Positions 3,869 through 42,000 of a DNA stretch of 64,000 bases are shown here, piece by piece (the first letter of the stretch is position 1; the number at the start of each line of letters is the position of its first letter). Below the pieces are notes generated by a model. That model was not told where the DNA came from. It made no database searches and saw only the letters and a list, made by a program, of their open reading frames with translations. The stretch comes from a virus: the IMG/VR virus record IMGVR_UViG_3300049491_000465, positions 1 to 64,000 of that record; one strand, 5' to 3'. The position numbers and the translations under genes were made by a program.

Positions 3869-5377
3869 ATGTTTGGTCCAGAGTCAAAGTTATTCCCAAA
3901 GCAGTCCAAGGCAAAAGGTCATGGAGGCAATTCACAATATCCAGGTCAGCAAGCTGGAGACATTCCTGATTGGAAGAGGTCTTATGAATATGATTTAGGT
4001 AGAGAAGTAATGAATCCATCTACCGGATTATATTATAGATGTATAGTAAATCATATATCTGGAAACAGTTTTTTAACTGATCTTGGATTAGGCAGGTGGG
4101 TGTTAATGTTTTCCGGTTCATCTGGACCGGCATTGGTGCGTTATTCTAACGTACTGTGGGTTGATCCTATCCACGGAAATAATGGAACTGCTTTACCTGG
4201 TAGATTTGATTTACCATATCAAACAATAAGCCAAGCTGCCTCAGTTGCTTTTTCTATTGGTAGATCAAGCAATGATAAGGTTCTTATACATATCAGACAA
4301 GGTTACTATGCTGATTATGTAGGTTTAATTGATTGGGTTGATTATTATTGTGAGCCAGGAGTTGTACTTGATGGAAGTGAGATTTCTGATGGTGCTTATG
4401 GTGCTGGAACATCAAATTTTTATGGTTATGCAGTTTTGAAAGAAACCATAATAAGAATATTGAATCCTTCGAATTGCATTCTTGAATTTGACAATTATGT
4501 AGCTACGGCCGCAGCAATAATAATAGTTCCATCTTCTGGTGTGGCTAACATCACTATTAACGCTGATTATATTTATGCTTTCGGAAGTGTCAGTGCATTC
4601 GCTATAACAGTCAGAGGTAATTCAAATGTTTTTATAAATGTTTCAAAAAGCATAGAGTGTCCTCATCAATGTATAGTTTTCAGAAACCATACAGGAAAAT
4701 GTGTTGTAAACTGTCCTAAATTGATAATGACTTCCGGCAATGTATTTGGAGGAAATTTTAAAAGCGTTATATCCCTTTTCGATACTGTATCTGGTGAGAT
4801 AATTATAAATGGAGACCTGGTTCATTCTGATGACGACTATTATGGTGGAACATCATCTATGGTTTTGGTTTGGAGTATAAACGCTTTATCAGGTAAGTTT
4901 ACATTAAACGGAAATATTGATGCCAAACTAATTCAACCAATAAACGGAAACGTAACAGGAGGAGGTAGTATGATTTTTAATGGAGACATTGATTCAGTAA
5001 ACTTCGCATCTTACTGTTATGGAAATGGTAAATTCCTATTCAGAAATTCAAAGATAAATATCGGACCAGATAACTTTGAGGCGTTCTTGTTGTTAGTAAC
5101 TGAAACAGCAGAATTGTATATTAAAAATTGTTATATGTATAACGCTAAAGAAGATTCATCATTAGTATCTGTTAATGGAGGAGTTGCTTTATTATCAATG
5201 GATAATGTTGTTGGATTTGGAGAGGGTGTTGGTTTTTCTTTAGAAACAAACGTAGGTGTAACCACTGTTTATGTCACTAATTCTAGATTTAATAACATTA
5301 TAAATCCATTAATAACAAATGCCTGTCTTCCAGATGGAATTGTTATAGATCCAAATATTAAAGTACCTAAATTTTAA
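3869..5377 (+). CDS. Tail spike/fibre with predicted beta-helix
   Basis: This 502-residue protein is probably a receptor-binding tail spike. Residues 1-85 form a domain shared with the fibre at 5701 (both start MFGPESKLFPKQSK and contain GDIPDWK and a YYRC segment), which I read as the virion-attachment module. From about residue 95 it has LWVDPIHGNNG followed by PYQTISQA, the usual entry into a right-handed parallel beta-helix in phage spikes. The remainder is Asn/Gly/Val/Ile-rich with short repeating strands, consistent with that fold. No catalytic residues could be assigned, so depolymerase activity is not claimed. Confidence 0.75.
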   Translation: MFGPESKLFPKQSKAKGHGGNSQYPGQQAGDIPDWKRSYEYDLGREVMNPSTGLYYRCIVNHISGNSFLTDLGLGRWVLMFSGSSGPALVRYSNVLWVDPIHGNNGTALPGRFDLPYQTISQAASVAFSIGRSSNDKVLIHIRQGYYADYVGLIDWVDYYCEPGVVLDGSEISDGAYGAGTSNFYGYAVLKETIIRILNPSNCILEFDNYVATAAAIIIVPSSGVANITINADYIYAFGSVSAFAITVRGNSNVFINVSKSIECPHQCIVFRNHTGKCVVNCPKLIMTSGNVFGGNFKSVISLFDTVSGEIIINGDLVHSDDDYYGGTSSMVLVWSINALSGKFTLNGNIDAKLIQPINGNVTGGGSMIFNGDIDSVNFASYCYGNGKFLFRNSKINIGPDNFEAFLLLVTETAELYIKNCYMYNAKEDSSLVSVNGGVALLSMDNVVGFGEGVGFSLETNVGVTTVYVTNSRFNNIINPLITNACLPDGIVIDPNIKVPKF

Positions 5378-5380
5378 GAT

Positions 5381-5701
5381 ATGCTTATTATTCAATCAGG
5401 ATCAAGTGGATCGATAGGAACCCATGTATTAATGGGCATCTATGGTGATGGAGCTTTATTATACCGCAAGAATGTTGAATTGTTTACTGATTCAAATAAA
5501 GCTATATACAATGACTTTTTCAATCTTGTAGGAAGTCATGCAACGATAGCGTTAATAAATTCACCGTACACAATGATGATTAATCATGTTATACCAGGTG
5601 AAGTTTCAAATGAAATTGTTGAGATAGATTATGAATCATTATCAGAATCAGAAAGATCAATAGTAGATCTTGCTTACAACACCTTTGTAAACGAATTCTA
5701 A
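5381..5701 (+). CDS. Hypothetical protein between two fibre genes
   Basis: This is a 106-residue soluble protein. The first 50 residues are Gly/Ser-rich and mixed beta; the end is acidic. Its stop overlaps the next ATG at 5701. Its place between two fibre paralogues suggests a fibre-specific chaperone or capping subunit, but I recognise no family. Confidence 0.65.
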   Translation: MLIIQSGSSGSIGTHVLMGIYGDGALLYRKNVELFTDSNKAIYNDFFNLVGSHATIALINSPYTMMINHVIPGEVSNEIVEIDYESLSESERSIVDLAYNTFVNEF

Positions 5702-6912
5702 TGTTTGGACCAGAATCGAAATTGTTCCCGAAGCAATCTAAGATAAAAGGGAACTCAGGAAACAGTCAGTACCCCGGAGCTAATCCAGGAGATATTCCAG
5801 ATTGGAAACAGTCGTATGAGTATGATGCTGGAACCGAGGTAAAAGCCCCTGACAACAATTATTATAGATGCGTACAAGATCATGTATCTAACAACTTCGC
5901 TTCTGATCTTGGTTCTGGTAAGTGGACTATTTTTGCCGGCCCAGGAATAAATACGGATCACCAAGTCCTAAGTCTTGATCCGGATAATGTTACATTACGT
6001 TTGTCCGGAGGATTGGTTCCGGATAGCACAGTTGATTTAACACCATTCCTTGATAATACAGACGATCAAGTTTTATCCCTTGATTTAGATGGAACAACTT
6101 TACGGTTATCAAATGGAACCGGTTCAGACACAACTGTTGACCTTTCTCCATTTCTTGATAATACCGATTCTCAGCAATTATCCCTTACCGGAAACACATT
6201 AAGCTTAACTAACGGTGGTTCAGTTGATTTAAGTCCGTATTTAGACAATACCGATGCACAACAACTTTCTCTTACAGGTAATACTTTAAGCCTAACAGGA
6301 GGCGGATCCGTTGATCTCAGTCCTTTTCTCGACAACACAGACTCTCAAACCCTTTCTATATTAGGTAATACTTTATCGATTAGTGGAGGAAACTCTGTTC
6401 CTCTACCAGCTTCGGCTGGAAACAGTGTTGTTTCAGAATTATCATTCGCAACAAATGTAGTTGATACAAGAGTTGGTGCCGGTGCAATGGCTACTGTTTA
6501 CAGTATTCCATACGCAATAAATCCTGCTGTTACCGATGGGAAAACAAGAAGACTTCAATATATAGCTAATTACACGAAAACAGTCGGTGTTACAACTACT
6601 GATTTCGAATTTGTTGTTGGAGGAATAGTTATTCCGTTTACATCAACAGCTATTGGTAATGCGGCTATTACAAATGGAACATATGTATTGAATCTATTGA
6701 TAAACTTCAGAGCTGGAAACCAAGCTTATGTAGGTGTTGAAATAAAGAGATATGATCCTCTTGGTGTATTGGTTCAAACTGCTCTTGTAAAAAGCCCGGT
6801 AGGAACATGGGATAAAACAATTGCGAACACAATCGATTTTAGATGGCAAGTTGTTAGCGGAACAACTACAAATACAATTACGATACTCGATGTAACAAGT
6901 GAATTGATATGA
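5701..6912 (+). CDS. Tail fibre with five tandem beta repeats
   Basis: This 403-residue fibre shares its first ~85 residues with the spike at 3869, then diverges completely. Residues ~82-240 hold five tandem repeats of about 28-36 residues built on DNTD-x-Q-x-LSL ... NTLSL ... SVDLSPFL. This repeat type is common in surface and secreted proteins of Bacteroidota, probably forming a trimeric beta-structured shaft. The last ~160 residues form a beta-rich tip with no recognised enzyme motif. The 4-nt overlap with the next gene couples it to a DUF4376-like accessory protein. Confidence 0.75.
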   Translation: MFGPESKLFPKQSKIKGNSGNSQYPGANPGDIPDWKQSYEYDAGTEVKAPDNNYYRCVQDHVSNNFASDLGSGKWTIFAGPGINTDHQVLSLDPDNVTLRLSGGLVPDSTVDLTPFLDNTDDQVLSLDLDGTTLRLSNGTGSDTTVDLSPFLDNTDSQQLSLTGNTLSLTNGGSVDLSPYLDNTDAQQLSLTGNTLSLTGGGSVDLSPFLDNTDSQTLSILGNTLSISGGNSVPLPASAGNSVVSELSFATNVVDTRVGAGAMATVYSIPYAINPAVTDGKTRRLQYIANYTKTVGVTTTDFEFVVGGIVIPFTSTAIGNAAITNGTYVLNLLINFRAGNQAYVGVEIKRYDPLGVLVQTALVKSPVGTWDKTIANTIDFRWQVVSGTTTNTITILDVTSELI

Positions 6913-7256
6913 ATTTAGATGAACTAAAAAAAGTCAGATGCAAAGAGATCGATCTTCGAACAAGTGAATTGATAGAGGAAGGTTTTGTTTTTGACGGACG
7001 TACATTTTCAATGAGTATTAATGCTCAGATTAATTGGAGTAATTTTCCGAATTTACCTGAGTATGTATTTCCTCTCGTTGTGATTGACAAGAATGATGAA
7101 TCATACTCTTTGTCTCTAAACAATAAATTGAACTTTTATCTTTCGGCATTGAGTTTTAAGAATTCAAAACTTCAAACTGGAGGTGCTCTGAAAATACAAA
7201 TCAACAACTGTTCAGATGAAGAATCTGTATTAGCTGTTATTGATGATAGAAATTAA
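6909..7256 (+). CDS. DUF4376-like tail fibre accessory protein
   Basis: This 115-residue protein follows the order of DUF4376 domains: a charged helix with EGFVFDGRTFSM, then NAQINW, a strand with FPLVVIDKNDES, and a helical end. Such domains are usually found in or next to phage tail fibres, often as fibre-assembly or tip modules. Its start overlaps the fibre stop by 4 nt. Assignment rests on motif order and context. Confidence 0.6.
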   Translation: MNLDELKKVRCKEIDLRTSELIEEGFVFDGRTFSMSINAQINWSNFPNLPEYVFPLVVIDKNDESYSLSLNNKLNFYLSALSFKNSKLQTGGALKIQINNCSDEESVLAVIDDRN

Positions 7257-7267
7257 CAAAAAAGAAT

Positions 7268-7834
7268 ATGGCAGAAGTAATCTCAAATCCATTAAGCAAT
7301 CAACAACCAAGTTCTCAGAATCAAAATGTTTCTGGATTAAGAAACCCTTTGATTTCTCAATTATGTATTGATGCTTTGAATTATAGAATTCAGCAAGAGG
7401 AGTTATCCTCAAGGATATATCTTTCAATGAGCATGTGGTTGAATAACAAAGGATACACTGGTGCAGCTCAATTATGGAGAAAGTATTCAAATGAAGAATT
7501 GATTCATGCAGATTGGGCCAGGGATTATTTATTATCATTTGGTGTTGAGCCAGGAACTCCTGCATTAGAAAAACAAACCTCATCATTCGAAGGTCTTCCT
7601 GAGATTATAAAGAAGTCATTTGATCATGAAGTAGAAGTAAGTAAACAGATCAAACAAATGGCTGATCACGCAATGAAAATAGCAGATCACATGTTGTACG
7701 AACTTTGTTTAAAGTATTTGAAAGAACAAGTTGAAGAGCACAACAAAATGCAAACCTGGATTGATAAACTTGAGATATTTGGCACTGAAAAAATTGCCTT
7801 GAGATTACTGGATAACGAAATGTTAAGTTATTAA
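7268..7834 (+). CDS. Ferritin-like iron-storage protein
   Basis: This 188-residue protein is a bacterial-type ferritin, a four-helix protein that oxidises Fe(II) and stores it in a 24-mer cage. Aligning by eye to E. coli FtnA, all six ferroxidase ligands are kept: E44, E77, H80, E121, Q154 and E157. The first ~27 residues are an extra Asn/Gln/Ser/Pro-rich extension absent from FtnA. There is no methionine haem ligand to suggest bacterioferritin, and the length and ligands do not fit Dps. It lies between tail fibre genes and the lysis cluster on the same strand. Whether it serves the infected cell or is part of the particle cannot be read from sequence. Confidence 0.9.
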   Translation: MAEVISNPLSNQQPSSQNQNVSGLRNPLISQLCIDALNYRIQQEELSSRIYLSMSMWLNNKGYTGAAQLWRKYSNEELIHADWARDYLLSFGVEPGTPALEKQTSSFEGLPEIIKKSFDHEVEVSKQIKQMADHAMKIADHMLYELCLKYLKEQVEEHNKMQTWIDKLEIFGTEKIALRLLDNEMLSY

Positions 7835-7836
7835 AA

Positions 7837-8139
7837 ATGGAAGACGTTAATACTGGTACGCTTTGGTTGGTTGTTGGTATATCCGGAACCCTGATAACAA
7901 TTCTCCTTGGGATTATTGGATTCTTTCTTTCAAGATTGATCTCTGATGTGAAGTCTGTAATTGAAGAGACAGGTAAGAATAAGGGTAGAATAGAGCTTGT
8001 TGAACAACAGCAACAGAATGATGTTAAAAGAATTGAACAGATGACACAATTCGAATTAAAGGTAATGTCTGAGAAAGTTGGTGAACTTGCAAGTAGCATA
8101 AACAGACTTGTTTTTGGAAAAATGACAGGTGATAAATAA
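7837..8139 (+). CDS. Small membrane protein with coiled coil, holin-accessory-like
   Basis: The protein has 100 residues. Residues ~8-32 form one strongly hydrophobic segment (WLVVGISGTLITILLGIIGFF), preceded by an acidic N terminus. Residues ~40-80 are Gln/Glu/Lys-rich and fit a coiled coil. The build is similar to XhlA-type lysis accessory proteins. Neighbours (two-TM protein, cysteine peptidase, M15 peptidase) support a lysis role; no sequence signature proves it. Confidence 0.6.
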   Translation: MEDVNTGTLWLVVGISGTLITILLGIIGFFLSRLISDVKSVIEETGKNKGRIELVEQQQQNDVKRIEQMTQFELKVMSEKVGELASSINRLVFGKMTGDK

Positions 8140-9384: not shown

Positions 9385-9885
9385 ATGGACCAGATAACAA
9401 TCGACAGAATCAAGAAAGCTCATCCTAAAGTTAGAGAAGAGTTAGAGACTCAATATCGTGAGATAAACAATAGACTTCCGGTTGGATGTAGATTGCGATT
9501 TGCTTACGTTCTAAGAACTCCAGAAGAACAGCACACACTTTACCTTCAAAGACCAAAAGTTACTAATGCAGATGCATGGCAATCAATCCATAATTACGGT
9601 TTGGCTTTCGATATTGTTTTGCTTTACGACAACAATGGAGACGGTAAATTTGAAGAAGCTTCATGGTCTTTAAAGAAAGACTTTGATGGAGATGGTACTC
9701 CTGAGTGGATGGAGGTTGTTAACTATTTTAAATCAAAAGGATGGACCTGGGGAGGTGATTGGAAATCTTTTAAAGATGCACCACACTTCGAGAAAAGCTT
9801 TGGTCTCGGATGGAGAGATATGAAGAAAATGGTTGACAATGGAAATTGCGTTATAGAGAATGGTGTAAAGTACATCAACTTATAA
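9385..9885 (+). CDS. M15 peptidase endolysin (L-alanyl-D-glutamate endopeptidase type)
   Basis: This 166-residue protein has the metal-site pattern of M15 peptidases: SIHNYGLAFDIV gives H69 and D76, and WGGDW followed by DAPHFE gives H134. The early RFAYVLRTPEEQ segment is the usual substrate-side motif. It would cut peptidoglycan stem peptides at lysis. Two calcium-loop-like segments, DNNGDG (residues 82-87) and DFDGDG (99-104), are inserted between the second and third zinc ligands; the latter fits an EF-hand-type loop of 12 residues ending in Glu110. Calcium control is known for the T5 M15 endolysin, so a similar switch is plausible. There is no signal peptide, so a holin is needed. Confidence 0.85.
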   Translation: MDQITIDRIKKAHPKVREELETQYREINNRLPVGCRLRFAYVLRTPEEQHTLYLQRPKVTNADAWQSIHNYGLAFDIVLLYDNNGDGKFEEASWSLKKDFDGDGTPEWMEVVNYFKSKGWTWGGDWKSFKDAPHFEKSFGLGWRDMKKMVDNGNCVIENGVKYINL

Positions 9886-10255: not shown

Positions 10256-12127
10256 ATGTACGCCAATACGGTATTATTTTCACCGGTTGTTACCGATGGA
10301 TTATGTCGTGCCAACCCATTGTCGTATGAATATCGTCAATGGTGGCATGAGCAGAAGAGGCGTTGTCTTGAAGGATACACTATTGCCGGAACTTATATAC
10401 CTGGAGACTATTATTGGTATTTGAATTTCTGGAAAATCAGAGGTAAGGATCCTAAGACTGGTAGAAAAACATTGATATCTCCAAGGTTCCTTGATATGGA
10501 TCTTGAGTATTTTCTTGCAGTTGAAGAAGCAAGGAAAGCCGGGAAACACATGGTTGTTGTTAAGGCCCGGCAGAAAGGTTTCTCTGAAAAACATTCCGCA
10601 TTACTTGGAAAAGAGTTTACGTTCTTTCCGCATTCTCAAGCGATTATTACAGCAGGAGAAGAGAAGTATTCAAATGCAACAATGAGAATGTGTGTTCGTG
10701 GATTAAACTCTCTGAAGGAAACGGAATTCTATAAAAGGAGAATGCCTGATACACTGGATTATATTCAGGCTAAGTACAAGGTGATTGAAAATGGAGTCCC
10801 ACATTGGAAAGGAATTCACAGTGAGGTTTACAACATTACATCAAAGAATAATCCACAAGCAACAATTGGTAAGTCCCCTTCATTAATCATTTTTGAAGAA
10901 GCTGGTAAGTTTCCGGGATTGATTGATTCTTTCAAATATATCCAACCAGCACTTGAAGCTGAAGGAGGAGAAAAGACTGGATTCGCAATTATTGTTGGAA
11001 CAGGTGGTGACATGGAGAAGGGAGCAGCAGAACTTGAACAAATGTTCTATCATCCTGAAGCTTACGACATGATGGCTTACCGTAATGATTACGAAGAAGA
11101 TGGTGGAGATTCAAAAATTGGATACTTTGTTCCAGCATCAAAATTCAAGATTGTAGATCAATTCGGGAACTCTCTAAAAAAGGAAAGTGAAGACTTCATA
11201 AATGTAAAACGTGAGGCTGCAAGAACCTCAAATAAAGCAAGTGACTTCATAAACACAATAACCCAGGACCCATTAGTTCCGAGTGAAGCGTTTATGAGAA
11301 CCGGTGGAAACATGTTTAATGCTAATTTACTTAACAAGCAATATGCGAGATTAAGAAATGATAAGGCATTATCAAACATGGCTGATCAAGGAAGACTTGA
11401 ATGGGTTCGTGATGATCTTGGTAAGATTTCTGGTGTTAGATTCGTTCATGATTCAGAAGGAAACTTATTAATCATGGAACATCCTGAACTTGACGAGAAC
11501 GGAGAGACTTACTTAAATCTATATGTGGCCGGAACCGACTCCTATGACAAGGACGAGGCTAACACATCTGATTCAAAGGGATCTTGTTCTATGTATAAAA
11601 TCTTTAAGGATATTAATTCAACATCTAATATCTTTGTAGCAAGATATACAGATCGACCATCAACAGCGGAAAAGTTTTATGAAGAGACAGCTAAACTTTG
11701 CATGTACTATAAATCTCCAAATTTGATTGAGTGGTCAAATATATCGATATTTAACTGGTACAAAAACAATGGGTTTGAAGGTTATTTAAAAGAACGTCCA
11801 CAAATAGCTTACGCTAATGTTAAGGACAGCAAGGTGAATAATCGTTACGGTGTAGATCCAGGAACAAAACTTGAATGGTTGATTATGTATAGAGATTACA
11901 TTGAGCAATATTCAGAGGTTATGTATGATATGCATCAAATTGATAGAGCAATAAAGTTCAGAAATGAAAGAAGTTATAACTGTGATATTACCATATCTTC
12001 AGCCTTGGCAGTTTGTCATGCTAAAGATAACATAGATATAAAATTGAAAAAAAGTCAAGACATAGGTGTAAAGGAAGAGTTCTTTCATTACAAATCAAAT
12101 CAAGGTAGAATGCAAGTAAAATTTTAA
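10256..12127 (+). CDS. terL: Terminase large subunit
   Basis: This 623-residue protein is the DNA-packaging motor. The N-terminal ATPase domain has a Walker-A-like segment KARQKGFS (about residues 103-110; the usual GKT is replaced, as often in phage terminases) and a Walker B with catalytic glutamate in SLIIFEEAG (about 208-216). The C-terminal part begins with YVAGTDSYDKDE (first nuclease aspartate near 428), typical of the RNase H-like headful nuclease. The long N-terminal extension with WYLNFW is found in terminases of large Bacteroidota phages. It is followed after 5 nt by the portal gene. No separate small subunit was recognised. Confidence 0.9.
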   Translation: MYANTVLFSPVVTDGLCRANPLSYEYRQWWHEQKRRCLEGYTIAGTYIPGDYYWYLNFWKIRGKDPKTGRKTLISPRFLDMDLEYFLAVEEARKAGKHMVVVKARQKGFSEKHSALLGKEFTFFPHSQAIITAGEEKYSNATMRMCVRGLNSLKETEFYKRRMPDTLDYIQAKYKVIENGVPHWKGIHSEVYNITSKNNPQATIGKSPSLIIFEEAGKFPGLIDSFKYIQPALEAEGGEKTGFAIIVGTGGDMEKGAAELEQMFYHPEAYDMMAYRNDYEEDGGDSKIGYFVPASKFKIVDQFGNSLKKESEDFINVKREAARTSNKASDFINTITQDPLVPSEAFMRTGGNMFNANLLNKQYARLRNDKALSNMADQGRLEWVRDDLGKISGVRFVHDSEGNLLIMEHPELDENGETYLNLYVAGTDSYDKDEANTSDSKGSCSMYKIFKDINSTSNIFVARYTDRPSTAEKFYEETAKLCMYYKSPNLIEWSNISIFNWYKNNGFEGYLKERPQIAYANVKDSKVNNRYGVDPGTKLEWLIMYRDYIEQYSEVMYDMHQIDRAIKFRNERSYNCDITISSALAVCHAKDNIDIKLKKSQDIGVKEEFFHYKSNQGRMQVKF

Positions 12128-12132
12128 ATGAT

Positions 12133-14655
12133 ATGCCGTTACCAAATCAAAATATTCCAGAGGGTGCCAAGACTCAAGAATGGATGGAAAGATGTGTGAG
12201 TGCCATAGTAAACATGTCGTTTACAAATCGTCTTGCAAAAGCAAAGGATAAGTTTTGTTACGACCTATATAATGGAGTTCAAAATGAAGGAGACTTCGAT
12301 TACCTGAGAAAGGTCGATGATTATGAATACCCTGCAAAGATCCGATTCGTTCCTTTGTTACGTCCAAAGTTTGATCGTCTTCGTGCTGAAGAAACAAAAC
12401 GTCCATTTAATTACCGGGTGTTTACAATTGACAGTAATTCTATAAACGATAAAAGTCAAAAGCGTTTCGAGAAGATCATTTCTGCGATGTCAGCTAATAA
12501 ACAGAAGGTTAGTCTTGCTTATGCCGAAGCATTGCGTGGTATTGAAGAAATGAAGGCCCAACTTAATGCTGCAAGGCAACAGGCGGCTCAACAAGGAACT
12601 CAGATCGACCCTCAAACAGAAATGAATCTTAGAGCTGCTGAAAGAGAACTTGAGATGGGTAAATTCGCTATATCTCATGAGAGTTTGATTTCAGAAAAGG
12701 AGCTTGAAGAAATCAATGTTTACTTCAAATATAAATACAAGGATTTCCTTGAGATCATGGCTGAAAAAGGTATTAAATACCTTATGGCTACTCAAGGGTT
12801 AAAAGACACTTTCAACCGAGGATTCGAAGATAAACTTGTCACTGATAAAGAGATTTATTATGTAGACTGGGAAGATACAATGAATTCAAAAGATCCTGTT
12901 TGTCGTAAAGTAAGTCCTATGGGATTCTACTACTCAGGTGACAGTCAAGTTGAATGGATTGATGATGCTGAATGGGCAATGGAAGAAAGGTTTCTTACAG
13001 CCAATCAGATTATTGATGAGTTCGGTGATAAGCTTTCATTTGAAGATCTTGAGAAGATCAAATCAAGACACTCGTACATAAATACTCAAACTGGATACGG
13101 TTATGGATACTATGGCTTTAATAGTTCTGTTGGAGGATCTGAATATGGGTCAAACAACGTCGAAGGATGTGGTCCCGATAGTTTATACTCTGGATCAGAA
13201 GATTTTTCTTCCGTAATAAGAGTTTGTAAAGTTTTCTGGAAATCCCCAAGAAGAGTTCGATCTAAAAAATCACCAAACCCACACAATGAAGAATCGGAAT
13301 TTACACATGTTATTTCTGATCAAGAAAAAATTAAACCTGAAAAAGGTGAGAAAGAACAGGTTGGCTACATGAATGATGTCTACCAAGGAGTAATGATTGA
13401 CACAAACATATTTATTGATTGCAGAAAGAAAGCTGTTGTTCGTGCTAATGATAACTTCGGTAAAGTTCAACTTCCATTCATAGGTCGTGCTTACAATTTC
13501 TACACAAGAAAACCATACTCTCTTGTATGGGCTGCAAAAGATGTTCAGATTTTGTACAATATCATTCACTACCATAAAGAGCTATGGTTGGCACTATCTG
13601 GTGTAAAAGGATTCATCATGGATAAGTCTCAGATCCCGGAAGGTATGTCAATGAAAGAATGGATGTATCAAAGAAAAATGGGAGTTGGGTGGATTCAATC
13701 TGTAAGATCAGGTTTGAATAAGCAAGCTACATTCAATCAATTCCAAAACTTTGATGACTCAATGGGTCAAGGTGTTCAATATCTACTTGTAATGCTTCAG
13801 CATCTTGAACAACTTGCCTCAAGTATTACCGGTGTATCTCCTCAAAGAATGGGTGATGTTGCTCCAACAGACCAGGTTGGTACAACTGAGCAAAGTATCC
13901 GGAATTCGGCATTGGTAACTGAGATTATCTTCTATGATCATGAACAGACCAAACGAAGAGTTTGTAACAGACTAATCAATCTTTGCCGAAGAGCATGGAA
14001 AGATGGAAAACATGGATCCTATGTTTTAGGAGATTTCGCACAAGAACTCTTTAACATACCAGCTAATGCATTGGAAAGAGCTGACTACCTTGTATTCGCA
14101 AGTGATAGCGGTCAGGAGGAAAGAGCTTTAAATGATCTTAAACAATTGTCAATGGCACAATACCAAAAAGGTATGTTGTCATTCTCAAATATTGTTAAAC
14201 TGTACAACACAGATAATCTTCGGGAAATGGAGGCTAAAGTTGAGCAGTATGAAGAGATAGCTTTAAAGAGAGCTGAAGCAGTAGGTGAAACACAGAGACA
14301 GCATGATATTCAATTAAAGCAAATGGACCAGGAGTTTAAAGCTATGATTGATAAGCAAGCTGATGATGCTAAAATGATCATGGCTGAACTTGAAAAAGCT
14401 AAGTTCGAATGGGAAATGCAGAAATTTGGAATGGATCAACAACTTAAAAAATACGAAGTTGATGCTAAAAATAATATTGACAATAAAAACATCGATACAG
14501 AGAGAGATGTTGAGTTGGCATATCTTGAACAGCAGAAAAAAGAAGCTAATCAAGAAGTTCAAATAGCAAGAGCAGATTTAGCAATGAGAGGCGTTGAGGC
14601 TACTGAGTCTCAACTCGATCAATCTCGAAAACAAAAAGAGAGTATAAAAGATTGA
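12133..14655 (+). CDS. Portal protein
   Basis: This 840-residue protein directly follows TerL and has the size and layout of portals in crAss-like phages. It has a mixed alpha/beta N-terminal body with a helical insertion at about residues 110-200. A central region ends in SITGVSPQRMGDV, the conserved portal segment before the crown. A long Lys/Glu/Gln-rich coiled coil fills about residues 690-840. The portal forms the 12-subunit channel for DNA entry and the base of the tail. Identification comes from position, size and the SITGVSPQR-type motif; I cannot show homology by alignment here. Confidence 0.8.
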   Translation: MPLPNQNIPEGAKTQEWMERCVSAIVNMSFTNRLAKAKDKFCYDLYNGVQNEGDFDYLRKVDDYEYPAKIRFVPLLRPKFDRLRAEETKRPFNYRVFTIDSNSINDKSQKRFEKIISAMSANKQKVSLAYAEALRGIEEMKAQLNAARQQAAQQGTQIDPQTEMNLRAAERELEMGKFAISHESLISEKELEEINVYFKYKYKDFLEIMAEKGIKYLMATQGLKDTFNRGFEDKLVTDKEIYYVDWEDTMNSKDPVCRKVSPMGFYYSGDSQVEWIDDAEWAMEERFLTANQIIDEFGDKLSFEDLEKIKSRHSYINTQTGYGYGYYGFNSSVGGSEYGSNNVEGCGPDSLYSGSEDFSSVIRVCKVFWKSPRRVRSKKSPNPHNEESEFTHVISDQEKIKPEKGEKEQVGYMNDVYQGVMIDTNIFIDCRKKAVVRANDNFGKVQLPFIGRAYNFYTRKPYSLVWAAKDVQILYNIIHYHKELWLALSGVKGFIMDKSQIPEGMSMKEWMYQRKMGVGWIQSVRSGLNKQATFNQFQNFDDSMGQGVQYLLVMLQHLEQLASSITGVSPQRMGDVAPTDQVGTTEQSIRNSALVTEIIFYDHEQTKRRVCNRLINLCRRAWKDGKHGSYVLGDFAQELFNIPANALERADYLVFASDSGQEERALNDLKQLSMAQYQKGMLSFSNIVKLYNTDNLREMEAKVEQYEEIALKRAEAVGETQRQHDIQLKQMDQEFKAMIDKQADDAKMIMAELEKAKFEWEMQKFGMDQQLKKYEVDAKNNIDNKNIDTERDVELAYLEQQKKEANQEVQIARADLAMRGVEATESQLDQSRKQKESIKD

Positions 14656-15917: not shown

Positions 15918-17372
15918 ATGAAAATTATCGGTACTGGCACATACGATGCCAACAGGACCACAATGACAAACTCCCTTGCGGCAGCTCTTTTGACTCGCCC
16001 GGAGATTTCGTCAAACGTGGTGAATTTATTTGAGGACAATTTTACAGCGTTCTCATCTTACCTCGCACGAAGAGGTTTTATGAAAAAAGGTCTGACTCCC
16101 GGATTAGAAACATCTGATTTCAAAGTGATTGGAAACCGAAAGTTCATGTGGGCTTTGAAAGGTTATCCTTTCCGAAAAGGAAGAATCGTTGTTGATGCTA
16201 CCGATGCAAATGGTGGTGCAACAGCACAACCGGGTGTTAATCAATCAGTGTTCATCATTACTTTGGATACTAATTTCTTTTCACCAAATGATACTTTGGA
16301 ATTGGGAGATCGTAGAACGATCGTTCAAGTCATGGATGAGTATCCGGTGGAAGTGGGTTCAGGAAACTGGAAATACAAAGTGAAGTTAGTTACCAATGTT
16401 CAAGGTGCATGGGTTGATCCTACTCTTGTCTCTGCTGACAGAGAAGTTGGTTTCAGTTACACTGCGTTCCCGGAACTTTCTGAAACTGGTTACGAGAAAA
16501 ACACATTCCCTGAGTGGCATACAAACTACATGACTATCCAACGTATGCAATTCTCAATTTCTGGTTCTGCACAGAACACAGTATTGTGGGTTGAGCACAA
16601 TGGTCAAAAATTGTGGTTTAAGCAACAAGAGATGGACATGCTTCGTCGTTGGGCTTATGCTCGTGAGAATCAATTGATTTTCGGTAAAGCATCTATTGAT
16701 GCAAACGAAAATGTATTGCTTCGTGACTTGAAAGGTCGTGAGATCATCCAGGGAGATGGTATCGTTGCACAAGGAGATTCTTCATTGAAATTCCAGTACA
16801 ACAACTTGAATGTAAAAACTCTTGAGAACATCATGCAGAACTTACAATTGTTGTCTAACAACGATGGTATGACTGAGGTGTTTGTAATGGGTGGTCAAGC
16901 ATTCGTTTGGAACTTCCAACGATTGATGCGTGATGTATTCAAGTACAATCCTACTCCATTATTTGTTTCTGAAGGAGACAAAGAAAAAGGAGTTAAAGTG
17001 GCTTTCAACAGCTACGAGATGGGTGGTGTTAAGTTGGTTGTTGCTTGGAATAAAGCAATGGACGCAGCTTGGAGACCGCAAGAGAAAGATATCTATGGTG
17101 TAAACCTTGAGTCTTATCGTGGATTCTTCGTGAGTCTTGGTAACACTATCGGAGGTGATGCAAACGTAGATCTTGTTGCTCTTGGTAACGGATCTGATGA
17201 TCGTCGATATGTGAAAAAGATTATCGACGGTATGTCCACTCCACAAGGATCTGGTCGTCGTGAATTCGCTTCAAATTCAGTTGATGGATACCAAGTACAG
17301 ATCTTGTCTGAGACAGGTCTTTGCTTGAAAAATCCATTCGGATTTGCTGAGATCTACAAACCAAGAGGATAA
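15918..17372 (+). CDS. Major capsid protein (HK97-like fold expected)
   Basis: This 484-residue protein follows the scaffold-like gene and is taken as the major capsid protein. Size, mixed alpha/beta content, absence of membrane or enzyme motifs and a promoter upstream of the pair all fit. The segment GLETSDFKVIGNRKFMW resembles the N-arm to E-loop transition, and MGGVKLVVAWNKAMD resembles the conserved P-domain strand of capsid proteins in this phage group. Codons look more biased toward GGT/CGT than in neighbours, as expected for a highly expressed gene. There is no cleavage site I can assign. Confidence 0.8.
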   Translation: MKIIGTGTYDANRTTMTNSLAAALLTRPEISSNVVNLFEDNFTAFSSYLARRGFMKKGLTPGLETSDFKVIGNRKFMWALKGYPFRKGRIVVDATDANGGATAQPGVNQSVFIITLDTNFFSPNDTLELGDRRTIVQVMDEYPVEVGSGNWKYKVKLVTNVQGAWVDPTLVSADREVGFSYTAFPELSETGYEKNTFPEWHTNYMTIQRMQFSISGSAQNTVLWVEHNGQKLWFKQQEMDMLRRWAYARENQLIFGKASIDANENVLLRDLKGREIIQGDGIVAQGDSSLKFQYNNLNVKTLENIMQNLQLLSNNDGMTEVFVMGGQAFVWNFQRLMRDVFKYNPTPLFVSEGDKEKGVKVAFNSYEMGGVKLVVAWNKAMDAAWRPQEKDIYGVNLESYRGFFVSLGNTIGGDANVDLVALGNGSDDRRYVKKIIDGMSTPQGSGRREFASNSVDGYQVQILSETGLCLKNPFGFAEIYKPRG

Positions 17373-20165: not shown

Positions 20166-20831
20166 ATGTCAAAGACTCTTGCTGAAGTAGGATATAGCAT
20201 CCGAAATCAAATTAAAGGTTACTTCTCAACTGATGATGAGCGAATTGATATTCAACTTATCTATGACAAGTGTTGGGATGTAAGATCTATTTTACTGAAA
20301 GAAGAGTATCGTCAATTCAAGAAGATAAATGATCAAGATTTTACTACTGAGTGCTGCCTTGAGGTTCAATGTAGCAGTATCGTATGCAACGGAATTGATT
20401 CCGGAGTAAAAGAATTTTTCGTTCAGATACCAAAAATTGAAGCTTCCATTGGTTACGATGGAATTAAATATTTTGGTACAGTTGATAAGAAGACTCCATT
20501 CAGAAGAGTTAATTATCAAGGACACATGTTTTCCGGCCATGAGAAATATACCGGTAGAGCACCAATGTTCACTCTGGTTGATGATAAAGCAATATTGTCA
20601 AACATGCCAACGTCAGGTATGAAGTTCGTCTGCCTCATTGCTATTTTCGAAGATCCAAGAGGTATATGTAATGAAAATGATCCATTCCCATTAGCAAGAC
20701 ATTTAGTTCACAAACTTGAATTGATTGTTATTCAACAATTGATGAGCACAATTCAAATAGGACCAGATGAAACTAATAATGGAAGAGACAATTCTCCGGA
20801 TCAATTACAGAAACAAAGCCGTGTAGAGTAA
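20166..20831 (+). CDS. Putative neck/ring structural protein
   Basis: The 221-residue protein has an N-terminal helix pair, a beta body with FFVQIPKIEASIGYDGIKY, and a C-terminal segment FPLARHLVHKLELIVIQQLM followed by a polar, Asn/Asp-rich tail. The FPxxxHLVxKLE pattern with a following polar tail recurs in structural proteins near the neck of Bacteroidota phages. It probably belongs to the connector assembly. Confidence 0.5.
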   Translation: MSKTLAEVGYSIRNQIKGYFSTDDERIDIQLIYDKCWDVRSILLKEEYRQFKKINDQDFTTECCLEVQCSSIVCNGIDSGVKEFFVQIPKIEASIGYDGIKYFGTVDKKTPFRRVNYQGHMFSGHEKYTGRAPMFTLVDDKAILSNMPTSGMKFVCLIAIFEDPRGICNENDPFPLARHLVHKLELIVIQQLMSTIQIGPDETNNGRDNSPDQLQKQSRVE

Positions 20832-33020: not shown

Positions 33021-36000
33021 ATGGCAGAAGATCAATTATCGAATGAAGCTCAAGACTTAGAGCTTCCTCAAGATCCTATTCAGGAAACATCTGTTCCGGA
33101 ATCATCTATTCCAGAGGCAGATCCTCCAGTTAAAAAATCATATTCAGTTCCAAAAGAGCATGTTGACTTTTATGGATTAACATCCATATATGGAAATTCT
33201 GATGCTGATGTTTTTGAAATGCAAAAAACAAAACCTCAGAAGATATTATCCATGATGCCGAAGGAAGAGGCTTTCAAACATTATTCTGAAGAGGCTAAAC
33301 GAATGGGTCTTGATTGGACTCCAGAGAAATTCGAACAAGATTATTCTTTTCGTGAAAAACAATATGCTAATTATAAAAAAGGCGTGTTTGATCATGGTAC
33401 TGGATTTGACCATACATTCAATAGAAGTTGGTCGAATCTTTTCGCAGACATGATATCTCCATACGAATTCAATCCATCAAGTGCATGGGTAAAAGTCAAT
33501 CCTCTTGATACTCAATTTATACATGAAGACGGAGAGCTTAAACGTGTAAAAACAAAAGATGAATCCATGTATGATCTTGGGTTTGTTTTGACTGATATTC
33601 AAGGTGATAAAGTAAAAAACGTATATGGTGATTACGTTAAAAACGAAAGGAAATATAAAGAAATAGAGATCGGTGGAAGAAAAATGAGAGTTCTCGATCT
33701 TGAAGCTCATAAAGATGATTTCTTTAATACTTCAAGAAACAACCCTGGTCCTGAAGGGAATACTGTTCTTGTTGCTTCTGAACTTCCAGACGGAACTCCA
33801 GCTTGGAAAGAAGAGACCATCGGTAAAATATCCGGTAAAGTTCATAGTGATGAAGTTGCCAGTGTTTACGGGCCAAGATCAATGAGACAATCATGGCATG
33901 AAAATCTATGGATGGCTTCACTTCCAAATGCAGCAGCTTCTATTCAAACATCTATTGTCGGTTTTGCTGATTATATTAAAGATGCTTTTGGATATGGAAA
34001 TGTTTATCTAAAAAATATGACTGGCGGTATTGGATCGACAGAATCCATTAGTGCGTTATATCAGGCTGGAACACCAGACTGGTTAGATAAAGCAGATAAA
34101 GAGTATAGGGATCATGCTGCTTGGATGAAGCCTAAAGCACCAGAGAATGTTCGTGGTGCTGGTGCTTTTGATAGTGCTCAATCTTTCGCTTGGAGCGGAG
34201 GGGCTGTTGCTGGTGAATTAATTAAAATGATAGCAGCAAGAAACTTCTCTTCATGGGCTGGAAAAACAGTTGGCATGACTCAGATGGGTGCTGCTAAACT
34301 TGGAGGATACATGGGTTCTGGAACCATGGCTATTTCTGCTGCTGATCAATTTAAGCAATCAATGATTGATAATGGTATATCTGAGGATAATCAATTCCTT
34401 CTGTATGGTCCAGCATTAGTTTCTTCATTTTTTGTTGAACGACTTGGCGGTAACATCCTTGATGATGGACTCAAATCATTCTATGCTAAACAGAATGTTA
34501 AAAAATATGTTGATGAAGGGATTCAGGAACAAGTTAAATTGTTCGGATTAAAATCTGCTTCTGAAATGTCAAAAGAACAAGTTAGATCAACTGGTAAAGT
34601 TGTATGGAATAAGATTTTCGATGCAAGTAAGTCGATGGGTGCTTTAGGTGTTAAGGCCGCTGGTGTTGCTGAGAAATATGCCCCTATATCTATTAAAGCT
34701 GCATGGGAGGAAGGAATGGAAGAAGCTGTTGAAGGAAGGATTTATACTGCTTTAGAAACTATTCACGATATGCATCAGGCTCATGATGCAAGAATGGGTA
34801 AAGATCTTGATCGATACACATATTCTTCATCTCCAGATGAAAAGAATTTTTATGAGGTAGACCGTCTTACTGGAATCAAAAGAAAGATTAGTTCTGAAAC
34901 ATACGAAAAGATGTCTTCAGCTCAAAAGATTAAGCCTGGAAACGGAATGTTCGGAGAGTATAATCCTGAGCTTGGTCTTATTTCTAACTGGACAAATAGA
35001 GCTACCGAAGGTCTTGTTGAAGACTTTGTTCTTGGTGCTTTTGCTGGTGGATTAATGACTGGTGCTGGAAAGCTTACTAATGGAAAAGATGCTCAAAAAG
35101 AAAAAACTCTTCAAGATTATGTTGTCCGTGGAAATGGCGATATAATGAGAAGTAAGTTTGCAGAGATGCATGAGAAGGGTCTTTTTGGACCAACAGACAT
35201 AAACACTCAAGATAAAGTTCATAACCCTCAAGATGAGAATTCTTTAAGTCTTAATGACATGGGTTATCAAACTGCTTTGAAAGAACTTGAAGAAGCTGAA
35301 TTAACTTTTAAGTTAACTGGACTTGAAGGAGATGCTCTTAAAGAAATGATGGAGTCTGAATACGGACATTCTCTTCTGAAGGAGGCTTATAACAATGTGG
35401 GCAAACAAAGAGATCTTCAGTCTGAAATAGATGATATTAATAAAGAGATGTCTGAAACAACAGACCCTCAATTAATCAAGAATCTTCAAGAAAAAATTAC
35501 TGATAAAACAAGGTTAAAGGAAGACTTGAATATTCAGTTGGGAGAGATCAGATCTGGAGATCGTATGATTCAAAGTGTTTCTGATTACGCTATAAAAGAT
35601 TGGAGCTCACAAAACAATACTGGTATCATCGATCCTAATGGAAATAAAGTAACTCCTGGTATAGCAGAATTGAAAAACGTAAGTGATCGTTACGATTCTA
35701 AGAAAGCTGCTGAGATTGAAAAAATAAATGAAGCGAAATCAAAAAGAGTACAGCTTGAAAATGAGGTCGGTTCTTTTTCTAAATCAAAAATAGATCCATT
35801 AAGTGCTGAATCAAATGTTTTTGAAAAGATCTCTGATATTCAGATAAAAGCTTCTGAAGTTGGTTTATCTGAATCCGGAACTAAATCAATGATGGATAAA
35901 CTTCAAGGTATTCGAAAAGATATTTTGAGAGGTATCGATCAATTTTTTACAGCGGAACAAATAACTGAAGCAGAAACGTCTCCTGATGAAGAAGCATTAA

Positions 36001-39000
36001 TGACTATGGCTAAATCTGGAATAGCTGGTTCTGATGCTGAAAAGATTGCTAAAACTTATGATGATCTTGATAGATCAATTAAGTCATTCAATGTTGATAA
36101 GAAGCCGGAAATAAAAAAAGATGACTTTGTTCAATGGACTCAATCTGGTCAATCACAATTTGATCAACCCAGAAAAGTTACGAAGATTTCTGATGACGGT
36201 GAATTTGGATTTGTAGAAGGATCTGATACTGGAATTCCTATTTCTCAATTACATGATCCAAATTACACAGGGGGTCGTGTTCGTGGATCTATTCCTGAAT
36301 CTTTTGATGAATCTACATTTAAAAGAAACTTCTACGACACTTATATTGATACTCAAGGAAATGAGGTTAGTATCAATCAAACAATGTCAGATCTCGCAAG
36401 TAGAAAAATGAATAGTGAAGATGAGAAGACTATTGAACTTTTGAATCAAGCTATTTCAAATAATGATTACCTGGCAAATGTTAATCACAATGTTTTAAAG
36501 GATCTTTCAAGCAGTAAAGATATTAATCTTGGTAAATACAAGCCTTCAGATGAGTCTATCTTAAATGATGATGAGTATAAAGCTGTAATAAATGATCTTG
36601 CAGATAAAAAGAATAGACTTAGAGATCTTTCTGAAGTTCAAAAAAAGGATGCTAATAACAAAAAGAATAGAGAGGGAAAGCTTCGTTATAACGATTACAA
36701 AATGCGTAATGACATTCTTGTTCTCGCATCTAATGTTGAGCATATTTCTCTTGATTCAAGAAACGAAATAGCAAGATTAAAAGCTCAGATATCAGAAGCT
36801 TTAGATTTGATTAAAGATAGTTATAGTAGTGAAAAGCAATACAAAAGAGAATATCTTGATCAAGTCGATCCGTTACTTGTAAAGGCTGAAACTATTCTTC
36901 ATTATGAATTTAATGGAGATAATAGAATTGAAATAATTGAAGGTATAACTGCTCAGTTTAAGCAGTATAAAGGATATGGTCCTTACAAGTCTCAAATCTA
37001 TCACAACGCAAGTGAGTTTGTAATGCATGATTTTGAAAATGTTTTTGATTACAGTTCTTTTAGTGAACAGGTGGTTAACAACGGAAAATCTAAAGGGGCT
37101 GCTTTTATGGCTAACATTCAGTTTGCCAATACATATTTCACAAATCATCTTCAAACTATTGATCGATTGGATCCTAAAAGATTCTTTGATTTTTATGCGA
37201 ATTCTGTTGCTGGATTAGATTTAGAATCAGGTCAAGTTCCTTCTTATGAACAGATTAAATCGATCTATCATACTACTGCATTCATGTCAAATCAGAAGAC
37301 TGATCTTCTTTGGAAGGTTCAGGATATTCTCACTGGTGCAAAGAATGAGAAGTCAAAGGAGATGCATTTCAATAGAGCATTATTTCTTCGTGGATTTGCT
37401 GGAACCGGAAAGACATCTTTAGTAATTAAATATGCTTCGAACATATTCTCTGATATGAACCAGAGAGATTTGGTTATAGATGTTGTTGCACCAAGTACAG
37501 AGCTTCAAAAATCATTGAGTTCAAATCTTGTTTCCTTTAGATCAAATTCTACTAATCCGAGTATGGATTATTATTCATTAGTTGATCACATCTTAAACCC
37601 TAAGTCAACTATTGACAAAACAGATTTGATTATAATTGATGAGGCATCTAATTTAAGCAAGAGTCAATTGAAAGATCTTAGAACTGCATTGAGCAAGTCT
37701 CGTGCAAGCAAAAGACTTTCTGTAATATTCCTTGGTGATCAGTCTCAAATGACATCTGTAAACAGTACAGTGAATGAGCTTGTTGCTGTTGAGAGAATCA
37801 TGGAAAGAACAATGCCTACAACTGAGGTATTTCGTTCTGGTGCTGCTGACATTAGTAATCTTCAGAACTCATTCCGTAGCTCAACATTCCAGAGAAAAGA
37901 AGCGATTCTTCCGAAAGGAACTTACGATAAGGAAAAGAACAATGGTCTTCATTATTTTGGAGGTACAAAAAAAGAAATGTACGATCAATTCATTTCTGAC
38001 TTAAACGACGGTGGTGACTTTAAAAAGAACAACACAGCATTGATTGTTTACAAGAAATCTGATCGTGAAGCTGCTATGAATTATGTTCGTAAAGCTTTAA
38101 AGGATGGATCTTTTGATCTTGATTCAAAAATCAAAACAATTGAAGAGGGTGAATTCTCTGCTCAAGGTCTTGGGTATGGAAGAATTTATGTAGCAATTGA
38201 TCAAGCTGATGCTGCTCATTTGTATAACCCAGCAATGCTCACTGCTATTTCCAGAGCAAAAAGAATTGATGATGAACATAATGGTTTTGCTTCAGTTCTT
38301 TCCACAAGAGGATTTAGCCAGGAAGGATCTCCTCTTATTGTTGAAACAAAAACTGCTTCTGCTGAAGATATTGAACGTCACAAATCTTGGGTATCATCTA
38401 TCATAGGTATGCCTGTTGAGTCTTCTGACAAAGCACAAAAAGAAGCTTCATCTACAATTTCTGATGTTACCAGTGCAAACTTCAATTCATTAAAATCGAA
38501 CCTTAGTTCCATTTTAGGAAAAGGAAAAATTGAATTTACTGAAGGAGGCTTTATTGCTGATGGATTAAGATTCAGATACAAAATAAAAAACAAACCGGTT
38601 CAATCTGTAACTCAAAAATTATCTTCAGCAACATCTCAATCTGAGACAGATAGAACATTGGATCCTCATGCTAAAAGAGGAAATGCTGTTCATAGAATTG
38701 TTGAAGCACATTTGTTAAAGCAACAAAAGAAAGGTGGTAAACTGTTTACCAAACAAGATATTGATGCCATCAAAGGGTATGTGAAGAGTTATAACGATCA
38801 GGTAGCTAAATGGAATGAATTGGCTAAACCTGAATCAAGACTTCAAACTATCGATCTTAATAACGATGAGGCTACATTTGAGACTAATAAGTTTATCCAG
38901 GATGTGATAAGTAATGTTGCAATTCCTATTGCAAACAAACTTAATCAAGGAGGTAAGTATTCTATTCCGGAATCTGTTATTGGTATTTATTACAATGACA

Positions 39001-42000
39001 TTGCTGGAACCATTGATATTATCGATCATGTTGGAATGGATGGTGACATCCCTGTCGTTGACATTCTCGACATCAAAACACTCACTCCTTCAGCATACAA
39101 GTTTTTTGGTGATGGAAATGTTGAATCAAAATTAAAGCTTCCAATAATCACTTCTCCGACTGGTGAAACTTATGCGGCAAGCGGATTGAATAAGGCTCTT
39201 TCTCAATTAGCAACATACAAAGCTATGCTTGAGAATGGAGATACTGAGACTGGTTTTAAACCAATGAAAGTTCGTAACGTAACAATCATTAAATCAAGTT
39301 TGACCGGTGCAAATGAAGTGTCTTCAATTGTGAATGATGATTTTGTAACATACGATACTGAATCTTCTGACTTCAAGAAGTTTAAGGATTACGGTGATAT
39401 GACTGTAAGTAATGGTGTTATTCTTCAAAACAAGAATACTCGTAACTATGATCCAAGTGATGAAGCATTAGGTTCTTTGATAACGACTCCTGAAGGAAGT
39501 TCCGTTGAAGTTACTGGAAGCTTTAAAGATGTTGATGGAAATCAGTCTTATGAATTAAACAACGACATCAACAATCCTGTGTCTTCTGATAAGTTTTCCG
39601 AATTGGAGTTAAATAACATTTCTAAGGAAATATCCGAAGATCCAACAATGATGAATAGCGAGAGAGTTTACAAACGATCTGCTGTAAGTCATTCAAATGG
39701 AAACACTTTCTCTTTCTCTACCGCTTCAACTTCTGTTGATAATGGTAAGCCTGGATATGCAAATGATCACTTTAAATTCAAATCTGAATTCATGAAGGTC
39801 ATTGCTCCAAAGATGAATTTCGGTTCTCCAAATGCACCGAAAGTAAATATGGTATTCCATCCGGAGCTTCAGTTATTAAATGACAAAGGTGAACTACAAA
39901 TGTTCAAGAATGTTGTTGCTTCATACATATCTGAAGATTCTATTTCTGATATAGTTAAAGCCGCTAAGACTTTGCCTTGGGCTACTGGAATGACAGATGC
40001 TCAGATCATGAAGGAAATAAAAGATCGTAACTATTTGTTGCTTTCAACTCTTCCTCATCCTGATTCTAATTTCGGTAAAACAGAGCGTGATATCGATTAT
40101 ACCGATCAGGCACAAGTTCAGAAATTGATTGAAAGAATCAAGAATGGATTTACTACCGATGGTGTTGCTGATAAGTTCAAACCACAATTAGTTCAATACC
40201 ATACAGATCTTGTTTCATACAGATCTTTAGGTGCTAAGAATCCAGGTGAAGTATTTGCTACTGTTAAGCTCAAAGGTCTTTCTAATCCATCTGTAATCTA
40301 TGATGGAAAGCAAAGATCAATGGACTCTCTTCTTACAGGTTTAAGTGCTAAAGGATTCAAAATTGGAAAACCATACTTTGGATCAAAACTTTACCAAAAG
40401 GTAGATGCTAATGGTAAGGTTTCGAATATTGCATCTTGGGCCGTTGATGTATGGAGAGTTTCTCCTTCAGTTGATTCTTCAAGAATAATTTTAAGAACCG
40501 GTGAATTTGATGATAATCATTACAGTGAGTTAAAGAAAAATATTAGTGATTTAAGATCTAATAAAGCATTGACTCATGGTGAGATAAATCAATCATTGGC
40601 AATGGGCTTTATTCTTCAGAATAGATCATTCTTGATTGATCCAACAACCGGAAAATTAACAGAAGAGATTCCTGGATTATCAAACTTTATAAAAGTTGAT
40701 GGCCATACAATTGATCTTAATGTTGATGGTAAAAAAACAATTCCAGCATTAATCGATTCTTTATCAAAAGCTATTGACTTGTTGAATGGTTCAAGAAAAT
40801 CAAACAATAAAGTAGCCAAGAATTTACGTCAGTCAGTTCCTTTTGTGATTGGAGATAATAACATGCGTGTTATCCCTTCCGGAATGGAATCTAAGCTGTT
40901 CACATCTGCATCTGATGTTCATTCCTTTGGAATTGAATTAGGAATGTCTGTCGTTAAAACAGAATCAGAAACAGGTGTTTATGGAGGTATGACATCTCCA
41001 TCTAAAAGCGATGAGGATTTATTGAAAAACATGGGTATTATTGATCCTAATCCTAATAAGGGTGGTATAGCATTCATGGAAGATATTGAGGAAGAACCAG
41101 GCATTCCATTGAGCGGCCATGAGTCTTCTTCAGATCCGGATTCCACACCAGTAAATGAGAAGGATCGTACATTCTACGATTTTGCTACAAGATACTTTGG
41201 TGACATTCGTATTATGAATGAAATCAAAAAAGATGTTTCAAGAATACTGATCCAGAATTCAAATTACAATCGTGATTTGAATACTCCTACAATGTCTAAT
41301 ACTGACATGCTCGCAAAAGCTTGGGACCATTATTCAAGATTGTCTGCGTTGATCGCAAAAGATTACAGTTCTATTGATGTGAAGAGTGGTAACAATCATT
41401 ACACTAATCTTTCAGAAATCTCTGGAGATACGGCACATCTTTTATATGAGGATAAATCGGCATTTTCAAGATACTTCAATTATGCAGTAGGATCTGATCA
41501 AGAGTTATTTTTTGCTATTGTTGATCGTGCACTACCAAACTTGAATATCAAGAAAATGAATAAGCTTGATATTGGAGAAGCTCTTGCTTTAAGAATGAAC
41601 TCTTTCCTTGATCGTGATGCTGAAGGTGTTACAGAAGAAGAAAAGGATATCATGTCTGCCAATGAAAACAGTCAGACGAGTGTAATGGATAGTATTAATT
41701 CCAGAGCATTCACTGATACTCTTTCCGGGTTTGTTCATCTAATGAAAAACCATGTTAAGCTAAAGGAATACTCAATTGATCCTAAAACAGGTGATCTTGT
41801 TGGTTCTGAAACTGGAGGATATATTAATCCTAAAACTATCGAAAAATCACTTGTTGATTCAGCTCAAACATCTTCTCCATTAAAAGGAGACTTGATGGAA
41901 CAATGGGTTAATAATTTCTTAGAAATTGCTAATCGATCTGGAGTTGGTTCTCCGACGTACAATCACTTAATGAGTTTTCATGACGATTTCTTTGGAGATC

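Follow-up and report, generated by a model that had tools for sequence, protein, structure and literature searches.

Ferritins of crAss-like phages that are interchangeable with Dps-like proteins and may be docked to the particle by a terminal peptide

Results

A ferritin gene in a crAss-like phage

The window, i.e., the whole stretch of DNA analysed here, covers 64 kb of a virus record of 77,884 bases and encodes an intact open reading frame of 188 residues with an ATG start (positions 7268-7834, plus strand). Pfam Ferritin (PF00210) matches residues 34-169 of its product beyond the cut-off (E-value 4.6e-23), and bacterial FtnA structures match residues 28-185 (E about 1e-21), the fifth-helix (C-terminal) region included. 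The ferroxidase ligands E44, E77, H80, E121, Q154, and E157 are the counterparts of E17, E50, H53, E94, Q127, and E130 in E. coli FtnA, and E76, E153, and E156 are extra ligands of the third site. In an alignment with 53 phage homologues, the six ferroxidase ligands, E153, and E156 are invariant, and E76 is at least 90% conserved. The phage ferritins evolve under purifying selection (median dN/dS of 0.085 in 46 pairs of close homologues). An earlier note on this DNA had described a phage-encoded ferritin with an intact ferroxidase site and a polar N-terminal extension of about 27 residues, and this description holds. Judged by the alignments, the gene is a bacterial-type (FtnA) ferritin with every ferroxidase ligand, for which a 24-subunit cage and iron mineralisation are predicted. 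Ahead of the conserved core (N26), the extension counts about 25-27 residues, is rich in S, N, and Q, and lacks an LKR-type tag of the sort described below (residues 1-26; 7268-7345, plus strand).

The gene is tightly packed, 11 bp from the preceding gene and 2 bp from the following one, and all of its neighbours described here are on the plus strand. Upstream are fibre-like genes, as the earlier note had seen: the adjacent one (6909-7256) has weak tail-fibre-like matches (phrog_3811, 5.7e-5; phrog_1348, 0.008) and is preceded by another at 5701-6912. The product of the latter has an N-terminal module in common with that of 3869-5377 (MFGPESKLFPKQSK...GDIPDWK.SYEYD) and diverges from it beyond this module, a pattern of constant anchor and variable body within the window itself. 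The lysis genes that the same note had placed beside the ferritin lie downstream. They start with a small membrane protein (7837-8139), holin-like by its position and hydrophobic N-terminal stretch, which also adjoins the ferritin in the homologous contigs L002 and L003, and continue with a papain-like gene and an M15 peptidase endolysin (9385-9885; PF13539, 3.2e-17). The large terminase (10256-12127; phrog_6681, 3.9e-94), the portal protein (12133-14655; phrog_6547, 1.2e-87), and the crassvirus major capsid protein (15918-17372; PF23898, 1.8e-39) follow and identify the phage as crAss-like. Among the phage-record matches listed, this capsid protein comes closest to uncultured crAss-like phages of the gut, with an identity of about 25%. 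No Dps-like gene was found elsewhere in the virus record. Further downstream, a single open reading frame of 6414 residues (33021-52265) has only weak family matches, and it is exceptionally large even beside the giant virion or RNA-polymerase-region proteins of crAss-like phages.

A family found, as far as sampled, in crAss-like phages only

Scans of IMG/VR gave 24 contigs, and then the best 80 of 94, with ferritins 53-73% identical to that of the window. The crassvirus capsid family PF23898 was present in all 11 ferritin records checked, one of which is that of the window. The possibility of an assembly chimera with host DNA, which the earlier note had named as a refutation, is ruled out, since contigs from two other metagenomes (L002, L003) have this gene between the same neighbours and more than 80 contigs encode homologues, at 50-73% identity. 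Two family-motif scans of 84,980 prokaryote species genomes, of a kind that misses distant relatives, found no close cellular relative of the phage ferritins, which argues against a host-like ferritin. The sampled cellular ferritins are only about 30-34% identical to the window protein, and the best matches in plasmid records reach at most about 34%.

In the ferritin tree, 59 phage proteins lie on one side of a branch with 100% support, opposite 10 non-crAss comparators that are a small cellular sample (nine plasmid-borne bacterial ferritins and one fecal fragment). The window protein and that of L002 group together inside the phage side. The origin from a Bacteroidota host implied by the earlier note, if recent, finds no support in this tree, where the window ferritin is nested among phage sequences, within the limits of the small cellular sampling. 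As far as sampled, the family seems confined to crAss-like phages, and we found no description of a ferritin in these phages in the open-licence literature searched.

Ferritin genes appear to circulate between phage lineages

The capsid tree and the gene order define three main ferritin arrangements. In lineage A, which includes the window, the ferritin precedes the lysis genes and the terminase. In lineage B, it lies close to the portal gene, usually with the capsid gene on its other side (in L053, it is upstream of the terminase). In lineage C, the main and largest one, it has a constant position between two genes, c2 and c8, that match virion-structural families (c2 also weakly matches an adaptor family). 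The tail/lysis context given in the earlier note is thus a feature of the window's sub-clade; elsewhere, the gene lies between virion genes.

The capsid proteins of the window lineage and the main lineage are 24% identical and their ferritins 61%. Across lineages, the ranges are 24-27% for the capsid and 58-61% for the ferritin, against 82% and 59% within lineage C. Because ferritins are as similar across lineages as they are within lineage C, despite capsid identities of 24-27%, their genes appear to circulate between lineages of crAss-like phages. The ferritin tree suggested multiple independent entries of ferritin into the second lineage. A single clade was nevertheless compatible with the data in an AU test (p 0.46), and the case for horizontal spread therefore rests on the contrast between capsid and ferritin identities.

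Relatives of the window lineage were found by way of the large terminase. Within lineage A, ferritin is present in the window and in L002/L003. It is absent ahead of the terminase in L164, L168, L173, and L177, relatives that cover this interval, which argues that the gene is dispensable in this lineage. Another relative, L205, has its ferritin elsewhere (20240-20812), about 9 kb downstream of the gene for the capsid protein, and with a different N-terminus. Given this patchy presence and the other site in L205, acquisition in lineage A was local and probably repeated.

Ferritin and Dps-like proteins alternate at one slot

We surveyed the slot between c2 and c8 with a scan seeded on c8, independent of ferritin, which gave 80 loci. 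A ferritin occupies the slot in 18 of them, a Dps-like protein in 49, neither in 13, and both in none; the two are mutually exclusive with p 6e-10, in a sample biased to relatives of L017 and with near-duplicates counted. The alternative protein belongs to DUF5856/phrog_858, has 141-174 residues, and weakly matches Dps structures. Its Dps ferroxidase motif, H-x11-H-x14-D-x3-E, is intact (H65, H77, D92, E96) and invariant in 41 sequences, and its overall sequence similarity to the phage ferritin is undetectable. On the c8 tree, ferritin and Dps-like proteins must have replaced each other 16 times or more, a count that recombination at c8 itself could have inflated. Since two different iron-oxidising cages replaced each other many times, the oxidation and sequestration of iron would be the selected trait of the slot.

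One exchange can be seen at the nucleotide level. The DNA of L085 and L083 is 97-99% identical on both flanks, and the two differ exactly by a swap of the ferritin and Dps bodies, with divergence that begins right after the codons for MAEQPRNLLKR and ends past the stop codon. In several main-lineage phages (L119, L130, L139, L146, L152, L154), c2 and c8 are nearly adjacent, and neither a ferritin nor a Dps-like gene was found elsewhere in the records checked. In L004 (9866-10917), L018 (9983-10938), and L044 (9522-10495), ferritin and Dps-like genes stand in tandem.

Two different bodies share an N-terminal peptide

The ferritins and Dps-like proteins of lineage C share a type of N-terminal peptide of about 11 residues, e.g., MAEQPRNLLKR or MEKPRMLKR, which is followed by a disordered and variable linker, 4-42 residues long and enriched in P, S, T, A, or K. 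A loose motif for this tag matches 40 of 58 ferritins and 38 of 49 Dps-like proteins, against 116 of 1575 other genes (7%); it was defined post hoc on sequences related by descent, so formal p-values overstate the case. Three observations, among them the exchange between L085 and L083, carry more weight than the motif counts: identical peptides are encoded by different synonymous codons in different phages, and the tags of Dps-like proteins are nearer to those of the most closely related ferritin phage than to ferritin tags at large (p 0.03). Lineage B has a different tag (MALDIN-like), common to the ferritin and the Dps-like protein that it encodes in tandem. The LKR tag is on the ferritin in L004 and L010, where the Dps-like protein starts otherwise (KLKKEELF).

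No LKR-type tag was recognised in the window ferritin or in its only close relative (L002/L003), and their N-terminal extensions show no clear mutual alignment. A short, targeting-like terminal peptide on a flexible linker, of the kind expected for encapsulin cargo, is thus found in the main-lineage homologues and not in the window protein. Virion-anchored phage proteins usually combine a constant anchor with an exchangeable body. By analogy, the tag and exchangeable body of lineage C may be organised like encapsulin cargo or like anchored appendages of the virion.

Discussion

Our analysis points to an iron-oxidising ferritin that is owned by phages, traded among crAss-like phages, interchangeable with Dps, and docked by its tag in the main lineage, a reading to which we give a probability of roughly 0.55. 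The ferritin would oxidise Fe(II) and mineralise the iron inside its cage, late in infection. The most likely role of the peptide of about 11 residues on its flexible linker in the main lineage is to dock the cage to the virion or to an assembly component, and the docked cage would keep iron and peroxide off packaged or replicating phage DNA. The sequences themselves establish the ferritin's identity, the intact sites, purifying selection, horizontal spread, the slot, the swap, and the common tag; assembly of the cage, its activity, late expression, docking, and DNA protection are inferred from them. If particle-bound, cages would remain in or on the particle and protect its DNA rather than be injected, because the tail constrictions of crAss001 are narrower than 50 Å (PMC10172136), too tight for a folded cage to get through. 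Inside the crAss001 particle there is a cargo zone of up to about 5.1 MDa, and head fibres are attached at its capsid (PMC10172136). For the window phage, the claim is limited to a predicted iron-oxidising cage, because a recognised tag is missing there. Our results suggest that cages for the oxidation of iron belong to the standard equipment of these crAss-like phages and may be bound to the particle. It is possible, and we propose it tentatively, that many environmental crAss-like phages carry interchangeable ferritin or Dps as virion-bound cargo or decoration, with an encapsulin-like peptide docking to a component of the HK97-type capsid or of the tail, and thereby shield their DNA from Fenton chemistry.

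The ferritin could instead be a soluble auxiliary protein of the infected cell, unlinked to the particle, which buffers Fe(II) from host breakdown and limits Fenton damage; the N-terminal extensions would then be unconstrained tails or translation-start elements. This is quite possible for the window protein, which has no recognised tag, is beside lysis genes, and is missing from most relatives of its lineage. A parallel exists in Gratiaviridae, for which phage Dps and Mn-catalase were proposed to serve oxidative-stress tolerance (PMC8008677). Solubility accounts poorly for the main lineage, where the gene has a constant position among virion genes and where the tags are kept despite synonymous codon changes, are common to two different bodies, and follow the phage lineage, and we regard it as a somewhat unlikely general explanation. 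Less probable still is that the constant N-terminal coding segment serves chiefly as a handle for recombination when cassettes are swapped, with no role in docking. The 5' breakpoint between L085 and L083 falls where such a handle would place it, but across phages diverged codons specify one and the same peptide, so that the protein sequence is kept beyond DNA homology, and the conserved upstream gene could equally serve recombination. We find very improbable the Ferrojan-horse device raised in the earlier note, in which particle-borne iron lures host iron-uptake receptors or is delivered on entry: fibre genes are near the ferritin in the window, and a study of Vi01-like phages ties the idea to a ferritin-like protein detected in virions by mass spectrometry (PMC10892097), but iron inside a ferritin cage is hidden, most phages of the family have the gene away from fibre genes, and the exchange with Dps suggests selection for ferroxidase activity rather than receptor mimicry. 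In Vi01-like phages, the one tested case of a ferritin-like virion protein, infection was independent of TonB and FeoB (PMC10892097). Iron delivery has no specific support here.

A phage family with tagged and interchangeable ferritin and Dps, encoded beside HK97-type capsid genes, would show that such phages repeatedly need to detoxify iron. It would also make testable the link between HK97-type phage capsids and encapsulins, which are regarded as relatives of these capsids and whose cargo is often ferritin-like. The natural swap pair L083/L085 offers a clean comparison. If the reading as virion-bound cargo is true, these phages would provide a natural counterpart of encapsulated ferritin.

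Among known systems, bacterial FtnA (PF00210) resembles the window ferritin in its five-helix length, its ferroxidase ligands, and its third-site glutamates; the phage protein differs from it by the N-terminal extension, the phage-only clade, the place among phage late genes, and an identity of only about 30-34%. The Dps and Mn-catalase of 'Gratiaviridae' (Benler 2021, PMC8008677) are likewise ferritin-superfamily enzymes of gut phages. They are different proteins, and the part of that article available to us describes no tagged swap slot. Protein gp217 of Vi01-like phages is ferritin-like and was linked to the particle by mass spectrometry; as presented in the sections of the report at hand, gp217 is a structure-prediction match at 22% identity, from an unrelated phage group and without a ligand analysis (PMC10892097). 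Giant viruses also have ferritins in their genomes (PMC9270025), but these are viruses of eukaryotes and a different group. EncFtn, too, is an iron-oxidising protein of the ferritin superfamily encoded with an HK97-type shell (PMC8229669, PMC5012862). The phage tag differs from the encapsulin signal by being N-terminal and of another sequence, the shell would be a DNA-filled phage capsid, and the docking is putative. The organisation is nonetheless alike: encapsulins load ferritin-like cargo via a short terminal peptide on a flexible linker (PMC8229669), and this peptide of about 10 residues with its variable linker (PMC8229669, PMC5012862) has the same layout as the N-termini of the tagged phage proteins.
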